DNA from: a virus | IMG/VR virus record: IMGVR_UViG_3300032285_001218 | Location: 1-55,024 of that record | Length of the DNA stretch: 55,024 nt | Strand: one strand, 5' to 3' | Shown here: positions 49,199 through 55,024 of the stretch, one piece after another | Numbering within the stretch: the first letter of the stretch is position 1 | How the letters are laid out: the number at the start of each line of letters is the position of its first letter | Notes under the pieces: generated by a model | What the model saw: only the letters and a program-made list of their open reading frames with translations | Told to the model about the DNA's origin: nothing | The model's database searches: none | Made by a program: the position numbers and the translations under genes

Positions 49199-50218
49199 TT
49201 AAATATATCCAAAATTATTATTAAGGTAACCGCCAGTAACAAATCTATCAAGACTAAATTTACGAGCACTTGTTCTGCTATACATAGGTTGTAATGTTAC
49301 ACTAAATGTGCTTCTAGTAGGAACATGAGAAACTCCGCCGCTAGTGGTTCCACCAATTCCAAAACTACCCAACAATCCTGCAACTTGTCCTACACCCCCG
49401 GCAACTCCGCTAATAATAGACGTTGCTGATCCAACAGCGCCTCCAAATGCTCCGCCAAATGCTCCGCCAATTGTGTTGGCTAAACTACCAATTGCATCGG
49501 CTGTTCCTTCCAATCCTCCAGCGGCACTTCCAACAACATTGACTCCTATATAATCGCACTTGTCTTCTAAAGAAACATCCATTGCAGTAACTACTACTGG
49601 AACATTTTTAAAAACATAGTTTCCGTAACCATTTAAGAAAACAATTGGTGGCGGGTTTCCGGCTTTTGGATCATTTCCTGTAAACATTTTGGTTAAACTT
49701 CTTAAATAATGTACCATAGCAATCCAGTATAATCCTTCTGTAGGATCTGACACATACATTGGGGCTGTTATTTTAATTGCACCTGGATCACTATTCTTAA
49801 ATGCTTGAAACGTATAGTTAGTATGTACTGTTTCAATTGGTGTATATTTTGCGCCGCTATGTATAGAAATTTTAGGAGTATATGGAAATATTAAACCGCC
49901 TGAATCTTTTAATGGCTTTAACACAGGGCTTGATTTGAAACTAGTCCAACTTGCTAAACTTAATCTAACCCTCCAATCATTGGCATGGGTATCTTCTGTG
50001 AAAGCACTGATGGCGCCCACTATGTCGCCAATTGCTTCACCAGCAGCTGGTAAATTTATACTTCGAATGGCACTGGCAAGGCCGCCTGGAGATGCAAGTC
50101 CTGCAGAAAAAGCAGAGCCTAAATTACTGGCAGCATTGAATCCGTTTGCACCTGCGCTAGCTAAATTGCCAAGATTTCCTAGCGAAGATGTTAATCCTGA
50201 ACCTAAATCGAAACTCAT
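49199..50218 (-). CDS. Putative tail-tube/baseplate protein (gp48/gp54-like)
   Basis: 339 residues. The central part (residues 80-240) contains IFPYTPKISIHSGAKY, TNYTFQAFKNSDPGAIKITAPM, YLRSLTKMFTGND and FLNGYGNYVFKNVPVVV, a pattern found in tail-tube-initiator/cap-type proteins of aquatic T4-like phages. The N- and C-terminal parts are Gly/Ala/Ser-rich and flexible (GGAFGGAFGGAVGSA). By position in the baseplate cluster it is the likely gp48 or gp54 equivalent, but which one is not clear. First gene of the late block, 19 bases behind a late-type box with CAGGAG between. Confidence 0.6.
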   Translation of the reverse strand: MSFDLGSGLTSSLGNLGNLASAGANGFNAASNLGSAFSAGLASPGGLASAIRSINLPAAGEAIGDIVGAISAFTEDTHANDWRVRLSLASWTSFKSSPVLKPLKDSGGLIFPYTPKISIHSGAKYTPIETVHTNYTFQAFKNSDPGAIKITAPMYVSDPTEGLYWIAMVHYLRSLTKMFTGNDPKAGNPPPIVFLNGYGNYVFKNVPVVVTAMDVSLEDKCDYIGVNVVGSAAGGLEGTADAIGSLANTIGGAFGGAFGGAVGSATSIISGVAGGVGQVAGLLGSFGIGGTTSGGVSHVPTRSTFSVTLQPMYSRTSARKFSLDRFVTGGYLNNNFGYI

Positions 50219-50236
50219 AGTGTATCTCCTGATACT

Positions 50237-50245
50237 CTATTTATT
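50237..50245 (-). promoter_or_regulatory. Late-promoter-like box AATAAATAG
   Basis: Minus-strand AATAAATAG, 18 bases before the ATG at 50218. It shares its last base pair with the -35 box of the divergent gp55 promoter. Head of the 31-kb virion block. Confidence 0.65.
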
Positions 50246-50273
50246 TGACTTTAATAAGTGCGTAGTTTATAAT
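50245..50273 (+). promoter_or_regulatory. Sigma70-type promoter for the gp55-gp47-gp46 operon
   Basis: TTGACT (50245-50250), 17-bp spacer, TATAAT (50268-50273). Start at 50296 with GAGG at 50283-50286. It lacks the ACATAG of the other plus-strand promoters. Divergent from, and touching, the late box at 50237-50245. Confidence 0.85.
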
Positions 50274-50295
50274 GTAATTTACGAGGACTCATCTA

Positions 50296-51123
50296 ATGAC
50301 AGCAAAAGTTAATTACCTAAACAACAAGGATATGTTGTTGGAAATACATAGAAGTAAAAGCTCATATTGTAGCTTTACACAGCCTGAATTTCATCAATAT
50401 GACAGTATCTTGCCAAGTGTTGACAAGATCAATATCAGAAGTATAGCTGATGCAAAACGAGCAAGGGCCAAACGTATTGGTGATTTAGAGTATGCAAGAC
50501 GCAAAGCGGCTGGAGAAAAAGTTAAACAAGCAGATTGCGAAGTTGACTATAAAAAGATACTAAAAACAGATGTTGTATTTCGTGTTATGACATTTGATCA
50601 TATTCCTTTAAACGGAACTAGAAAAAAGAATCCAAAAAGTCTTGCAGATCATAGAGACAAAGTGAACTTCCCTCCGTTTCAGCATTGGAAATATAACGAA
50701 GAAGATGAACTCGTTTGTGTGGGCAAGAGTCATTGGAAAGGTGATTTGGAAAAAGGTCACTTTGACAAAGATGCTGGACAAATTACTCCGACACTTGCCC
50801 GAATGATGATTAAGCTATGTGAACGATATGCCACAAGGGGCAATGTTCGTGGTTACACTTACAACGATGAAATGAAAGGGCAAGCTATTTTGCAATTAAC
50901 ACAAATTGGACTTCAATTTGATGAAAGCAAGTCGGATAATCCGTTTGCTTATTTTACTGCCGCAGTTACTAATAGTTTTGTACGTGTTATTAATATTGAA
51001 AAACGTAATCAGAATATTAGGGACGATGTGCTTGAAATGAATGGTATGAATCCAAGTTACAGTAGAACTGGCTCGGGAGAACATGCTGCCGCTGTTAAAC
51101 GTTTTGATGAAGGTGCTGAATGA
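50296..51123 (+). CDS. gp55: Late-transcription sigma factor gp55-like
   Basis: 275 residues. The start NYLNNKDMLLEIHRS corresponds to the T4 gp55 N-terminus (NYVNNKELLQ). Residues 160-235 match its sigma region: YTYNDEMKGQAILQL (187-201), then FDESKSDNPFAYFTAAVTNSF (208-228). T4 gp55 directs host RNA polymerase to TATAAATA late promoters. Between these parts is an insert of about 130 residues (25-160) absent from T4 gp55 (185 aa), with CxxxDxKKI and KVNFPPFQHWKY segments; similar inserts are familiar in far-T4 phages. It is transcribed away from the late block it would activate. Confidence 0.88.
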   Translation: MTAKVNYLNNKDMLLEIHRSKSSYCSFTQPEFHQYDSILPSVDKINIRSIADAKRARAKRIGDLEYARRKAAGEKVKQADCEVDYKKILKTDVVFRVMTFDHIPLNGTRKKNPKSLADHRDKVNFPPFQHWKYNEEDELVCVGKSHWKGDLEKGHFDKDAGQITPTLARMMIKLCERYATRGNVRGYTYNDEMKGQAILQLTQIGLQFDESKSDNPFAYFTAAVTNSFVRVINIEKRNQNIRDDVLEMNGMNPSYSRTGSGEHAAAVKRFDEGAE

Positions 51124-52133
51124 CAAATTTATTTAAGAAGGTTGCTTGCTTCACAGACATACACTTTGGTTTGAAATCAAACAGTAGTGTACACAATCAA
51201 GACTGTGAAGAATTTGTAGATTGGTATATTGCCAAAGCCAAGGAGGAAGGATGCGATGTTGGAATTTTTATGGGTGATTGGCATCACAATCGCAATAGTC
51301 TTAATATCACTACTATGGACTATAGTATTAGGGCCTTGGAAAAGTTGGGGCAGGCGTTTGATAAATTTTATTTCTTTCCTGGCAATCATGATCTTTATTA
51401 CAAAGACAAACGGGATATTCACTCAGTCGAGTTCGGAAAATATATTCCCGGAATCACAGTGGTACATGAACCGACTACCATTGGGGACGTTACACTCTGT
51501 CCGTGGCTTGTAGGAGACGAATGGAAAACTATTGGTAAAAAAGGTGGCAAATACATCTTTGGTCACTTTGAATTACCCAGCTTCTTTATGAACGCTATGA
51601 TTCAAATGCCGGATCACGGTGAAATACAATTAGATAGCTTTAAAGGTTACGAGTTAGGCTTTAGTGGACACTTCCACAAACGCCAACAACAGCGTAATAT
51701 GATCTACATTGGCAATGCATTTCCCCATAACTACGCAGATACATGGGACGACGAGCGTGGTATGATGATACTTGAGTGGGGTGGTCAGCCAGAATATCAT
51801 ACGTGGCCTATGCAACCTACCTTTCGAACAGTTAAATTAAGTCAACTAATAGATGAAGCTGATGTAATTATCAAACCTAATCAACACCTACGTGTCAGTT
51901 TAGACATTGATATTACCTACGAAGAAGCTAGCTTTGTCAAAGAAGACTTTATGAAAAAGTATGCTATTCGAGAATTAACACTTATTCCCGAAAAGAAAGA
52001 ATTAGAAATTAACACTGATATTGATATACAAGCATTTGAAAGTGTAGATCAAATTGTCAGCAATCAATTAATCAATATTGAAAGCGATACATTTGATAAA
52101 AAAATATTGTTGGAAATCTATAACAGTCTATGA
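51120..52133 (+). CDS. gp47: Recombination nuclease subunit gp47 (Mre11-like)
   Basis: 337 residues, T4 size (339). Metallophosphatase motifs in order: FTDIHFG (Asp13, His15), GDWHH, FPGNHDLYYKD, FGHFELPSF and SGHFHKR. Together with gp46 it forms the Mre11/Rad50-type complex that resects DNA ends for recombination-dependent replication and host DNA degradation. It overlaps the gp55 gene by four bases and gp46 by four. Confidence 0.95.
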   Translation: MTNLFKKVACFTDIHFGLKSNSSVHNQDCEEFVDWYIAKAKEEGCDVGIFMGDWHHNRNSLNITTMDYSIRALEKLGQAFDKFYFFPGNHDLYYKDKRDIHSVEFGKYIPGITVVHEPTTIGDVTLCPWLVGDEWKTIGKKGGKYIFGHFELPSFFMNAMIQMPDHGEIQLDSFKGYELGFSGHFHKRQQQRNMIYIGNAFPHNYADTWDDERGMMILEWGGQPEYHTWPMQPTFRTVKLSQLIDEADVIIKPNQHLRVSLDIDITYEEASFVKEDFMKKYAIRELTLIPEKKELEINTDIDIQAFESVDQIVSNQLINIESDTFDKKILLEIYNSL

Positions 52134-53908
52134 TCAAAATTAAAGATTTAACCGTAAAAAACTTTATGAGCGTGGGTAATCAAACCCAAGCTGTAAACTT
52201 TGGGCGTGAACAACTAACTCTAGTACTTGGTGAAAATTTAGATCAAGGCGGAGATGACAGCGGATCACGTAACGGTACAGGTAAAACTACCATTGTTAAT
52301 GCGTTGAGCTTTGCTTTATTTGGCAATGCCCTTACGAATATCAAGAAAGATAACTTGATTAATAAGATTAACAATAAGAATATGTTGGTCACACTGTCTT
52401 TTGAGAAAGATGGTAACAAGTATAAGATTGAACGTGGTCGTAAACCCACAATCATGAAGTTTTACGTAAACAACCAAGAACAAAGTGCAGAGTCAACTGA
52501 TGATAGTCAAGGTGACATGCGTGAAACACAAAAGGACATTGACGAATTACTAGGCATGAGCCACGATATGTTCAAGCATATTGTAGCACTAAACACCTAC
52601 ACTGAACCGTTCCTTAGTTTAAAAGCCAACGAGCAACGAGAAATTATTGAACAGTTACTAGGCATTACCCTGCTTAGTGAAAAAGCTGATGCACTTAAAG
52701 AACAAATCCGTCTAACTAAAGAGTCTATCTTTCAAGAAACTGCAGATATTGAGGCAGCTAAGAAGTCTAACGATAAAATTCAAATCAGTATTACTGGTTT
52801 AGAAACTAGACAAAGTGCTTGGTATAGTCAACAAAAGACAGACTGTGCTAAAATTACAGAAAGTATTGCAGAATTACAAAGTGTTGATATTGAAAAAGAG
52901 CTAGTTCAACATGCTAAACTAAAACAGTATGACGAACATGCCGCAAAGATCAAAAGTCTTAATAAAGAGAAAGCAACATTAGAAACTGCTGTTATTCAAG
53001 CAGATAAAAGTGTTACCAAGTATACTAAAGAAGTAGAACAGTTAAAAAACAAGACTTGTCCTGCATGTGAGCAAGGACTACACAGTCATAAGCACGAAGA
53101 AATGACTGCAGGTGCTGAAAAAAATCTTGCAGATGCAATAATCTATCTTGAAGGCGTTAGCGACAGCTATGCTAGTGTTGTACAAGAATTAGAAACCATT
53201 GGTGATATCAATGGAAGACCTAAAACTTACTATGATACTGTAGAAGAAGCACTAAAGCATCAAAATAATCTTACCAGTTTAGAAGAAGCATTGTCTAGAA
53301 GACAAGCTGAAACTGATCCTTATCAAGAACAAATTGATGATTTAAAACATACTGCTATTCAAGAGATCTCCTGGGATAATGTTAATGCGTTGACAACTAT
53401 TAAAGATCATCAAGAGTTTTTGCTTAAATTGTTAACAAATAAAGATTCGTTTATTCGTAAGAAGATCATAGATCAAAACCTTGCCTACTTGAACAATAGA
53501 TTAACCTACTATCTTGATAAGATGGGATTACCGCATCAAGTAAGTTTCTTAAACGACTTAAACGTTGAGATTACACAGCTAGGACAAGATCTAGACTTTG
53601 ATAACTTGTCACGTGGCGAACGTAATCGTTTAATTCTTGGATTGTCGTGGGCGTTCCGTGATGTGTGGGAAAGTTTGTATCAAAGTATTAACTTATTGTT
53701 TGTTGACGAACTTATTGACAACGGATTAGATGCAAACGGTGTAGAAAATGCCTTAGGTGTGCTTAAAAAGATGGCTCGTGAACGCAAGAAGAACATTTTC
53801 CTAATCTCGCACAAGGACGAATTAATTGGTCGCGTGAATAATGTGCTTAAAGTTATTAAAGAAAATGGCTTTACCAGCTATGCAAATGATATAGAGATTG
53901 ATGAATGA
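52130..53908 (+). CDS. gp46: Recombination nuclease subunit gp46 (Rad50-like)
   Basis: 592 residues (T4: 560). N-terminal ATPase half with GSRNGTGKTT (45-54), two coiled-coil arms, and a zinc hook CPACEQG at the turn. The C-terminal ATPase half has the LSRGERNRLILGL signature, Walker B LLFVDELID and the H-loop LISHKDEL. This completes an SMC-type ATPase. The protein controls the nuclease gp47 and tethers DNA ends. Overlaps gp47 and the next gene by four bases. Confidence 0.95.
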   Translation: MIKIKDLTVKNFMSVGNQTQAVNFGREQLTLVLGENLDQGGDDSGSRNGTGKTTIVNALSFALFGNALTNIKKDNLINKINNKNMLVTLSFEKDGNKYKIERGRKPTIMKFYVNNQEQSAESTDDSQGDMRETQKDIDELLGMSHDMFKHIVALNTYTEPFLSLKANEQREIIEQLLGITLLSEKADALKEQIRLTKESIFQETADIEAAKKSNDKIQISITGLETRQSAWYSQQKTDCAKITESIAELQSVDIEKELVQHAKLKQYDEHAAKIKSLNKEKATLETAVIQADKSVTKYTKEVEQLKNKTCPACEQGLHSHKHEEMTAGAEKNLADAIIYLEGVSDSYASVVQELETIGDINGRPKTYYDTVEEALKHQNNLTSLEEALSRRQAETDPYQEQIDDLKHTAIQEISWDNVNALTTIKDHQEFLLKLLTNKDSFIRKKIIDQNLAYLNNRLTYYLDKMGLPHQVSFLNDLNVEITQLGQDLDFDNLSRGERNRLILGLSWAFRDVWESLYQSINLLFVDELIDNGLDANGVENALGVLKKMARERKKNIFLISHKDELIGRVNNVLKVIKENGFTSYANDIEIDE

Positions 53909-54159
53909 ACTATGATGAGTTGCACGATCAACTAATGAAAGAATTCAGAGCATACTTTGAAGACTATCAAAATTGGGCAACTACTGAGTCGCATGCCTCT
54001 GGTATGCGTTCTCGAGCACATTTATCAGAGATTAGGCGTATTGCCAGTGCATTACGTGTAGAAATATTAGAAGTACGTAGGCTTAAACCAAAAATTAAAT
54101 CGCCCGCATATAGGGCCGCTCAAAAACAACAGGCAGAAAAAGGCACAGACACTAACTAG
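53905..54159 (+). CDS. Small basic hypothetical protein
   Basis: 84 residues, overlapping gp46 by four bases. It is helical with a basic C-terminus (RVEILEVRRLKPKIKSPAYRAAQKQQAEKG). The motif KIKSPAYRAAQK recurs as a tail on small proteins of T4-like phages beside gp46. It may bind DNA or the nuclease; inference only. Stop TAG is followed within three bases by the endonuclease-like gene. Confidence 0.65.
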   Translation: MNYDELHDQLMKEFRAYFEDYQNWATTESHASGMRSRAHLSEIRRIASALRVEILEVRRLKPKIKSPAYRAAQKQQAEKGTDTN

Positions 54160-54162
54160 TTG

Positions 54163-54600
54163 ATGTCATGGTATTATCAAAACGCACTAGTTGAAACCCT
54201 TCCAGAAGAATGTATAGGTTTCGTCTATTGTATCACTAATAACATCACTGGTCGCAAATATATAGGCAAAAAACTAGCTAAATTCGCAAAAACAACTTAC
54301 AAAACAGTAAAACTAAAAAACGGCACAAAGAAGAAAAAGAAGATTCGTTCTAAAATTGATTCTGACTGGCGTGAATACTATGGCTCAAGCGACCATCTAA
54401 CAAAAGATATAGAAACTCTAGGCGCAGAGAATTTTACAAGAGAAATACTTTACTACTGCACATCAAAGGCTGAATGCTCATACATAGAGGCAAGAGAACA
54501 ATTCACTCGCAAAGTTCTCGAAAGTGACGACTACTATAACGGACACATAGCTGTTCGTGTACACGGAAGTCATATCAAAGGCAAACAATTAAACGGTTAA
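54163..54600 (+). CDS. GIY-YIG family endonuclease-like protein
   Basis: 145 residues from ATG 54163; an in-frame TTG three bases earlier is a weaker start. The GIY-YIG core is modified: GFVYCITNNITGRKYIGKK at residues 19-37 (FVY in place of GIY, YIG at 33-35), followed by SDWREYYGSS, ECSYIEAREQF and YYNGHI. This arrangement is familiar in T4-like phages and is often annotated Seg-like or homing endonuclease. No intron or intervening sequence was found beside it: gp46 and all other nearby genes are intact. It may be a free-standing endonuclease or a host/phage DNA nuclease. Confidence 0.8.
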   Translation: MSWYYQNALVETLPEECIGFVYCITNNITGRKYIGKKLAKFAKTTYKTVKLKNGTKKKKKIRSKIDSDWREYYGSSDHLTKDIETLGAENFTREILYYCTSKAECSYIEAREQFTRKVLESDDYYNGHIAVRVHGSHIKGKQLNG

Positions 54601-55024
54601 AGCTCGCACAGGCTAATTTCGTGTGCCGAACAGAAGAAACCTGGACCCAGTGTCGCAGGAATCCGTAGTCTCTCGCCGTTAAGAGCACTCAATCACTATC
54701 CTTCACAGGACGAAGATCGCAAAGCTGCCGCGGTTTGATTGTTTAAAAGAAATACAGGCAAAAAGAGGGTTAATAGCCCACGTTTGCTAGCATGTTAGCG
54801 TATGTTAGTAAGCCGCCGTCATAATAAAGACACAGCTCGAGGTACCGGATGACCGCCTCTGTAATGCTGTAACGCTAAGTGATAAAAGTGCAACTCAGAT
54901 AATGTTGATTTTATTTCTTTGCCCGCAAGGGCAAAGTGTGACTGAACAATCTAGATAATATTTAAACTGCTTCGCAGCAGTATTATTAAATACAAAAAGA
55001 AATTAGTTCGAGCGTAAGCGATGA
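54601..55024 (+). ncRNA. Hairpin-rich non-coding region, candidate structured RNA
   Basis: About 420 bases with no ORF of credible size. Visible stems: GCACA/TGTGC (54606-54610/54622-54626), CCTG/CAGG (54640-54643/54656-54659), CAATCA/TGATTG (54690-54695/54736-54741) enclosing TCCT/AGGA (54699-54710), GCTA/TAGC (54786-54799), a three-tier stem ACAGC-GAGG-CGG/CCG-CCTC-GCTGT (54832-54870), CTTTGCCC-GCAA-GGGCAAAG (54917-54936, GNRA loop) and ACTGC/GCAGT (54966-54981). The region continues past the window. No tRNA or tmRNA features were found. Its strand and limits are uncertain. Confidence 0.45.

Follow-up and report, generated by a model that had tools for sequence, protein, structure and literature searches.

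The DNA analysed here, called the window in its full length, is the linear stretch of 55,024 bases of the IMG/VR virus record IMGVR_UViG_3300032285_001218. Towards its end it carries the genes for the late sigma factor gp55 (50296-51123), an SbcD/gp47-like protein (51120-52133) and an SbcC/gp46-like protein (52130-53908), followed by an 84-aa ORF and, on the plus strand, by the gene for a SegE-like GIY-YIG endonuclease (54160-54600; Pfam PF19835, E 6.6e-33). When gp55 and gp46 were compared with cultured phages, the nearest relatives were the jumbo Pseudomonas phages of the PA5oct/Paride group and Sinorhizobium phage Phosso, with protein identities of 43-48%. In one subclade (e.g. L033, cluster 6 proteins), the place of the 84-aa ORF between gp46 and GIY-YIG is taken by a radical-SAM-like gene that has a CTLRCPRC motif. 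SegE-type GIY-YIG homologues are widely labelled 'NAD synthetase' in phage records (H7, H8, H11-H15), and this label is probably a propagated misannotation.

The GIY-YIG ORF stops at 54600, and the sequence from 54601 to the contig end is noncoding. The preliminary description had noticed that these roughly 420 bases lack a credible ORF, and we came to the same result: the only ORFs of at least 25 aa that overlap the tail are antisense and encode 31-37 aa. Among 131 relatives, the longest stop-free stretch had a median of 34-50 codons out of 133 across all six frames, and the length of the RNA falls into all three classes modulo 3. A coding gene with a frame conserved in relatives had been named as the observation that would speak against an RNA, and no such frame was found among the 131 relatives. 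A protein-coding gene was therefore rejected. ARAGORN detected neither tRNA nor tmRNA in the window, which also removed these identities for the tail.

To collect homologues, we used two sources of loci, which lie on contigs that are fragments. A search with the GIY-YIG protein yielded 80 phage loci, and a motif scan supplied further loci, which are biased for the middle motif; a test on 74 loci and the window itself are free of this bias. Searching the GIY-YIG and motif-scan loci at the nucleotide level with the 420 nt identified 149 homologues of full length, and 131 were distinct. Covariation was quantified in a MAFFT alignment of 130 IMG/VR sequences with our own G-test with APC, which resembles R-scape and is not R-scape itself; as null model, Fitch substitutions were re-dealt along a FastTree tree in 40 replicates. 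Under this tree-based null, 26 column pairs covaried at E<0.05, and covariation was seen in nearly all helices and in three pseudoknots. In 100 sequences of less than 85% identity, P1, P2, P3, P4, P6, P8, P10, P11, P14, PKa, PKb and PKc were 82-98% canonical vs 27-61% in slid controls, and most of their pairs showed double changes. The energy of single-sequence folding was moderately better than chance (z = -2.6), and since this alone is insufficient, the case for a structured RNA rests on covariation. Thus, the proposal of a long structured RNA beside the gp46/GIY-YIG genes is strongly supported by the very test, covariation in homologues, that had been suggested with it. The tail (54601-55024) encodes the greater part of a single structured RNA, which measures about 450 nt and is cut by the contig end.

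This RNA, which lies on the plus strand with all its elements, is built from a 5' three-way-junction domain, a middle domain with pseudoknots and a 3' module, the hairpin of which is flanked by two copies of a 7-nt sequence. At the 5' end (54602-54626), the P1 hairpin (54606-54610/54622-54626) is combined with the pseudoknot PKa (54602-54603/54612-54613); here the pairs 54602-54613, 54608-54624 and 54610-54622 covary and 94-98% are canonical. The three-way junction (54690-54741) is formed by P4 (54690-54695/54736-54741), P5 and P6 (54715-54720/54730-54735), with covariation between 54692-54694 and 54737-54739 and for the pair 54718-54732; P4 is 96% canonical and carries double changes in five of its six pairs. 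The middle domain (54745-54884; model R1) contains P8 (54782-54813), a 12-bp hairpin (54782-54793/54802-54813) with significant pairs 54787-54808, 54791-54804 and 54793-54802, double changes in all 12 pairs and 90% canonical pairing vs 39% in slid controls. Its loop UUAGCG (54795-54800) pairs with CGCUAA (54873-54878) to form PKb (54795-54878; pair 54800-54873, E 0.01), which is 96% canonical with double changes in 6/6 pairs. The three-tier stem P10/P11/P12 (54832-54870) bears the near-invariant sequence GGUACCGGAYRACCGCC, which gives invariant alignment columns, and 54833-54835 covary with 54867-54869 (E down to 1.5e-6). The AUGA loop of this stem (54849-54852) is engaged with UCAU (54819-54822) in PKc (54819-54852; pair 54820-54851, E 5.7e-5, 100% canonical), which reads GUYRU...AYRAC across the 100 diverse sequences. 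P9 uses bases that also belong to PKc, and the two may alternate. P8, PKb and PKc are the strongest elements, and P7 and P13 are weak and poorly aligned. Within the 3' module, P14 (54917-54936) is a hairpin of the type UUUGCCC-GCAA-GGGCAAA, which is 89% canonical with double changes. It can be seen that the three stems picked out by eye in the preliminary description, namely the 8-bp GCAA hairpin (P14), the three-tier stem (P10-P12) and the multibranch at 54690-54741 (P4-P6), are all real and conserved. RNAalifold predicted no base pair in the alignment of the 3' module because the twin loops dominate there and the MAFFT register is poor. At 55006-55024 a further hairpin starts (GUUC-GAGCGNAAGCGA-...; GAGCGTAAGCGA is unique in the window), and the window ends inside this GAGCGNAAGCGA hairpin at 55024. 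In the relatives, the RNA finishes with the GAGCGNAAGCGA hairpin arms (105/128), followed by a terminal hairpin of 7-8 bp with freely varying sequence (also 105/128).

When the tail was compared with Rfam, cmscan matched 54601-54744 to RF01718 Polynucleobacter-1 with 87.3 bits (gathering score 37, E 2.7e-18) over the entire model (positions 1-141 of 141). The 5' domain, comprising P1-P6 and PKa, is thus this family. Polynucleobacter-1 was described as a probable RNA that occurs in Burkholderiales and in fresh water and estuary and has no known function, and was tentatively listed as 'probably' cis-regulatory (Weinberg et al. 2010, PMC2864571); it was not found named elsewhere in the literature searched. 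The remaining two thirds of the RNA (about 280 nt), including the middle domain of the aquatic clade, belong to no Rfam family. Hence the novelty that had been proposed for the whole tail does not hold for 54601-54744, which scores well above the gathering score, and the Rfam search that had been recommended returned no above-threshold family for the rest. For this remainder of about 280 nt, as for the three pseudoknots, the twin loops and the setting in phages, neither Rfam nor the literature searched gave a precedent, so that the proposed novelty holds in part.

The two copies of the 7-nt sequence flank P14. Copy 1 (54894-54903) consists of CUC and the core AGAUAAU (54897-54903), and copy 2 (54950-54959) of UCU and an identical core (54953-54959). 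Three of the 26 significant column pairs connect these copies (54892/54948, 54897/54953, 54901/54957); they do not base-pair, lie at a constant offset of +56 and have the same base in both columns. The consensus is ACUC-[RSAURAD]-G for copy 1 and AUCU-[RSAURAD]-A for copy 2, and both segments are single-stranded or loops. The core was identical between the copies in all 131 full-length RNAs, although eight core types occur and at least 38 concerted changes, a minimum obtained on a tree from other parts of the RNA, have taken place. When only loci gathered by protein and with enough downstream sequence were considered, the window included, an exact twin core was present in 73 of 74; the single exception (L060) shows a one-base difference between its cores. 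As background, the twin pattern matched nine times in 240 kb, and the whole window contains one match, at 54894. Immediately outside the core, the two copies constantly differ (CUC vs UCU in front, usually G vs A behind). Five loci downstream of GIY-YIG (L062, L063, L064, L069, L074) have another large 5' body, apparently by body replacement, and keep the 3' twin-loop module with a ninth core, ACATGAA. Since the module is retained despite a different body, the RNA is modular. No other relation within the RNA is as well protected as this twin word, and the fact that both loops always change together suggests a shared partner.

Many uncultured T4-like phages from fresh and coastal waters inherit the RNA in a fixed slot, which follows gp55-gp47-gp46-GIY-YIG. 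The GIY-YIG gene, itself downstream of gp46, is the direct upstream neighbour in 116 of the 131 loci whose context was compared, and in nearly all 131 the RNA is on the GIY-YIG strand, usually -1 to 30 nt past this gene; in some loci (L021, L189, L097) another gene intervenes. In the 74 GIY-YIG loci gathered without RNA sequence, the RNA was always found downstream of the gp46 and SegE-like GIY-YIG genes. Its 3' side is occupied either by convergent genes or by a co-directional gene whose N-terminus, of the MKIYEIISE type, is similar to a capsid-targeting sequence of T4. A leader or riboswitch for a downstream gene was rejected because the upstream gene is constant, whereas the downstream flank is variable, often convergent and without a fixed co-directional gene family. 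A constant downstream gene, the criterion for the cis-regulatory listing of RF01718 in 2010, is not what we observed. Among the first genes 3' of the RNA (L002-L081), many start with a common short N-terminus (MKIYEIISE, MKVYDIISE, MRINDILTE) that leads into unrelated bodies, and these genes are preceded by the late-promoter-like AATAAATA; the N-termini are probably capsid-targeting sequences of internal head proteins.

A second Rfam family, RF02947 cow-rumen-2, matched the window at 54782-54887 with 21.8 bits, which does not reach its gathering score of 66, and it also weakly matches the corresponding place in most large aquatic contigs. Scanning viral contigs with cow-rumen-2 gave 65 stretches, with up to four above-cut-off copies per contig of about 420 kb. 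Inspection of their flanks revealed a larger RNA: a promoter-like sequence (GTTTAC...TATATTTG) is followed by a 5' multibranch, a hairpin with a UAGC-type loop, AGCCGCC, a GUACAGGAUGACC stem, a core, a GCCUA/UAGGC hairpin and again a core. These cores (ACAGAT, ACGGAATAT, GCAGGT, CCAAAAG) are alike within an RNA and differ between types, the longest common word of the repeats being 6.7 for the RNA's own copy vs 5.2 across RNAs. The paralogues of a single genome may carry different cores: one rumen genome (G015) has ACAGAT three times and GCAGGT once, and another (G016) has three different cores. One cow-rumen-2 paralogue (L468 / L338, G018:C1:322640-322746) seemingly lacks the 3' twin module. 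Alignments and regular expressions found the collinear order hairpin - GCCGCC - GUACnGGAURACC stem - core - hairpin - identical core in aquatic and rumen forms, and the baseplate gene that lies downstream in many rumen loci is a homologue of the one that is convergent in the aquatic loci (hhalign 96%, E 2.7e-9; blastp 5.6e-8). Reciprocal hits of covariance models were individually weak (about 17-23 bits) and fell on the right spot far more often than expected by chance. With the aquatic model R1, 3 of 9 hits in four rumen contigs fell on the few cow-rumen-2 copies. The rumen-only model R3 matched the whole window at E<=1 only at 54769-54961 (0.024, a rough value as these E-values come from a short calibration), and in 463 kb of protein-gathered loci its eight best hits were all at the RNA. 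Because element order, twin repeats, neighbouring baseplate gene and weak reciprocal model hits agree, RF02947 very probably represents the central part of a related RNA from rumen megaphages, the probable counterpart of the middle domain, and on the combined evidence a common ancestry of the two RNAs appears highly likely. Rfam holds no clan for RF01718 or RF02947.

The rumen relatives occupy several unrelated loci with their own promoter-like sequence, and tblastn found no GIY-YIG gene near them. A guide RNA dependent on GIY-YIG was rejected on this ground, and because the GIY-YIG homologue of cultured phages (e.g. Melnitz) occurs without the RNA. For a self-splicing intron or a nuclease-associated guide RNA no such Rfam match was obtained, and linkage to a nuclease is not obligatory in the rumen relatives.

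We found no cultured phage that carries the RNA: blastn of the window against INPHARED gave no match, nor did PA5oct, Paride and Phosso match the models R1, R2 and R3 or Rfam. These three phages contain gene-poor, strongly folding stretches (L326 8600-9530 in Paride, the same region of L325 in PA5oct, L327 8420-9420 in Phosso; z of -2.0 for part of L326 and -3.8 for part of L327), which are flanked by gp46 and by baseplate/RNase H genes, thus lie in a position similar to that of the window RNA, and show no sequence or model match. For PA5oct, ncRNAs based on RNA-seq have reportedly been described. Bacterial genomes searched with the pattern GGTACNGGAYRACCGCCT gave mostly short chance matches and were discarded as a source; no Rfam RNA was matched in the two best full-length bacterial hits (L253, L304), apart from a tRNA in L253, or in two rumen/gut hits (L219, L258).

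Taken together, these data are probably best explained by a stand-alone, trans-acting phage RNA, the pseudoknotted body of which would display a two-copy binding site to one partner. Such an RNA would be made as a discrete transcript and ended by its own terminal hairpin; in the rumen forms, the preceding Bacteroidota-type promoter sequence points in the same direction. The RNA would serve as scaffold and the twin loops as a bivalent, sequence-specific site. The partner would most likely be a phage-encoded dimeric RNA-binding protein, the simplest reader of twin loops, and both might form an RNP during infection. If the preference of this partner drifts, both loops must change, and we propose this as the reason for the concerted evolution of the cores. 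The rumen paralogues, which share cores only partly within one genome, count against a single partner per phage and make self-sorting assemblies like those of ROOL and GOLLD conceivable. Homo-oligomers are formed by ROOL, GOLLD and OLE (PMC12286853), and the RNA studied here has the same style, being phage-encoded, several hundred nt long, rich in pseudoknots and without an obligate protein neighbour. The concerted loops might then belong to contacts between RNA molecules by which paralogues, with their partly different cores, are kept separate. We consider such an RNA-only assembly unlikely, as the cores are identical rather than complementary, the RNA holds no complement of the core elsewhere, and the palindrome AUCU-AGAU of copy 2 is lost in cores of the GCAU type.

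Somewhat less likely still is an antisense or guide RNA whose twin cores pair with an mRNA or DNA target of phage or host. The cores do vary as though they tracked a sequence, two copies would raise avidity, and where paralogues differ in their cores, their targets could differ as well. However, in five large phage contigs, a test that covered phage targets, the reverse complement of an RNA's own core was not enriched near start codons or genome-wide when compared with other core types, and an antisense partner in cis was rejected, since none is present in the RNA. It is improbable that the structure is only a cis-acting 3' UTR that ends and stabilises the transcript of the gp46/GIY-YIG operon. 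Beginning at the GIY-YIG stop codon and closing with a terminator-like hairpin, the aquatic RNA would suit this role, but it is far more elaborate than stability needs, the intervening gene in some loci separates it from GIY-YIG, and the rumen relatives stand at several unrelated loci, with their own promoter-like sequence and with no GIY-YIG gene found by tblastn. Finally, an exact 7-bp identity over many divergent genomes might reflect gene conversion or a use of the repeats at the DNA level, such as protein-binding direct repeats, instead of a function of the RNA. This is the least probable reading, because conversion tracts would need to stop exactly at the core each time, given the constantly different flanks, and because the surroundings covary as RNA.

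In a wider sense, and with somewhat less than even confidence, the sequence comparisons may define a new superfamily of large modular RNAs of T4-like giant phages. Its members would combine a fast-changing pseudoknotted body with a conserved 3' module, in which two loops with one 'address' word evolve in concert, and would build an RNP or an RNA-only particle during infection; of this superfamily Rfam would so far see two unrelated fragments. Large phage RNAs such as ROOL and GOLLD are few and functionally mysterious, and the window RNA adds a class to them. This class was found downstream of GIY-YIG in every tested member of a widespread aquatic phage group and very probably extends to rumen megaphages. 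It connects two orphan families, RF01718 and, very probably, RF02947, and its twin loops offer a sharp handle for finding the partner of the RNA.

Compared with known systems, the window RNA has the freshwater setting in common with Polynucleobacter-1, the model of which spans only the 5' third of RNAs of this type. That family is listed as probably cis-regulatory, whereas the window RNA comprises about 450 nt, resides in T4-like phages and has no fixed downstream gene. With cow-rumen-2 it shares the hairpin with a UAGC-type loop, the subsequent GCCGCC and GUACAGGAUGACC stem, the twin repeats around a hairpin and a gp26-like baseplate neighbour; the rumen forms differ in being multicopy, in having their own promoter-like sequence and in lacking the PKb covariation. 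ROOL and GOLLD gave no Rfam match up to E 5 in 50000-55024 or up to E 1 in 54500-55024. Like the window RNA, they are large, pseudoknotted, encoded by phages or prophages and of unknown function (PMC12286853). Unlike them, the window RNA is shorter, lies outside a tRNA island and carries twin loops that change in concert.
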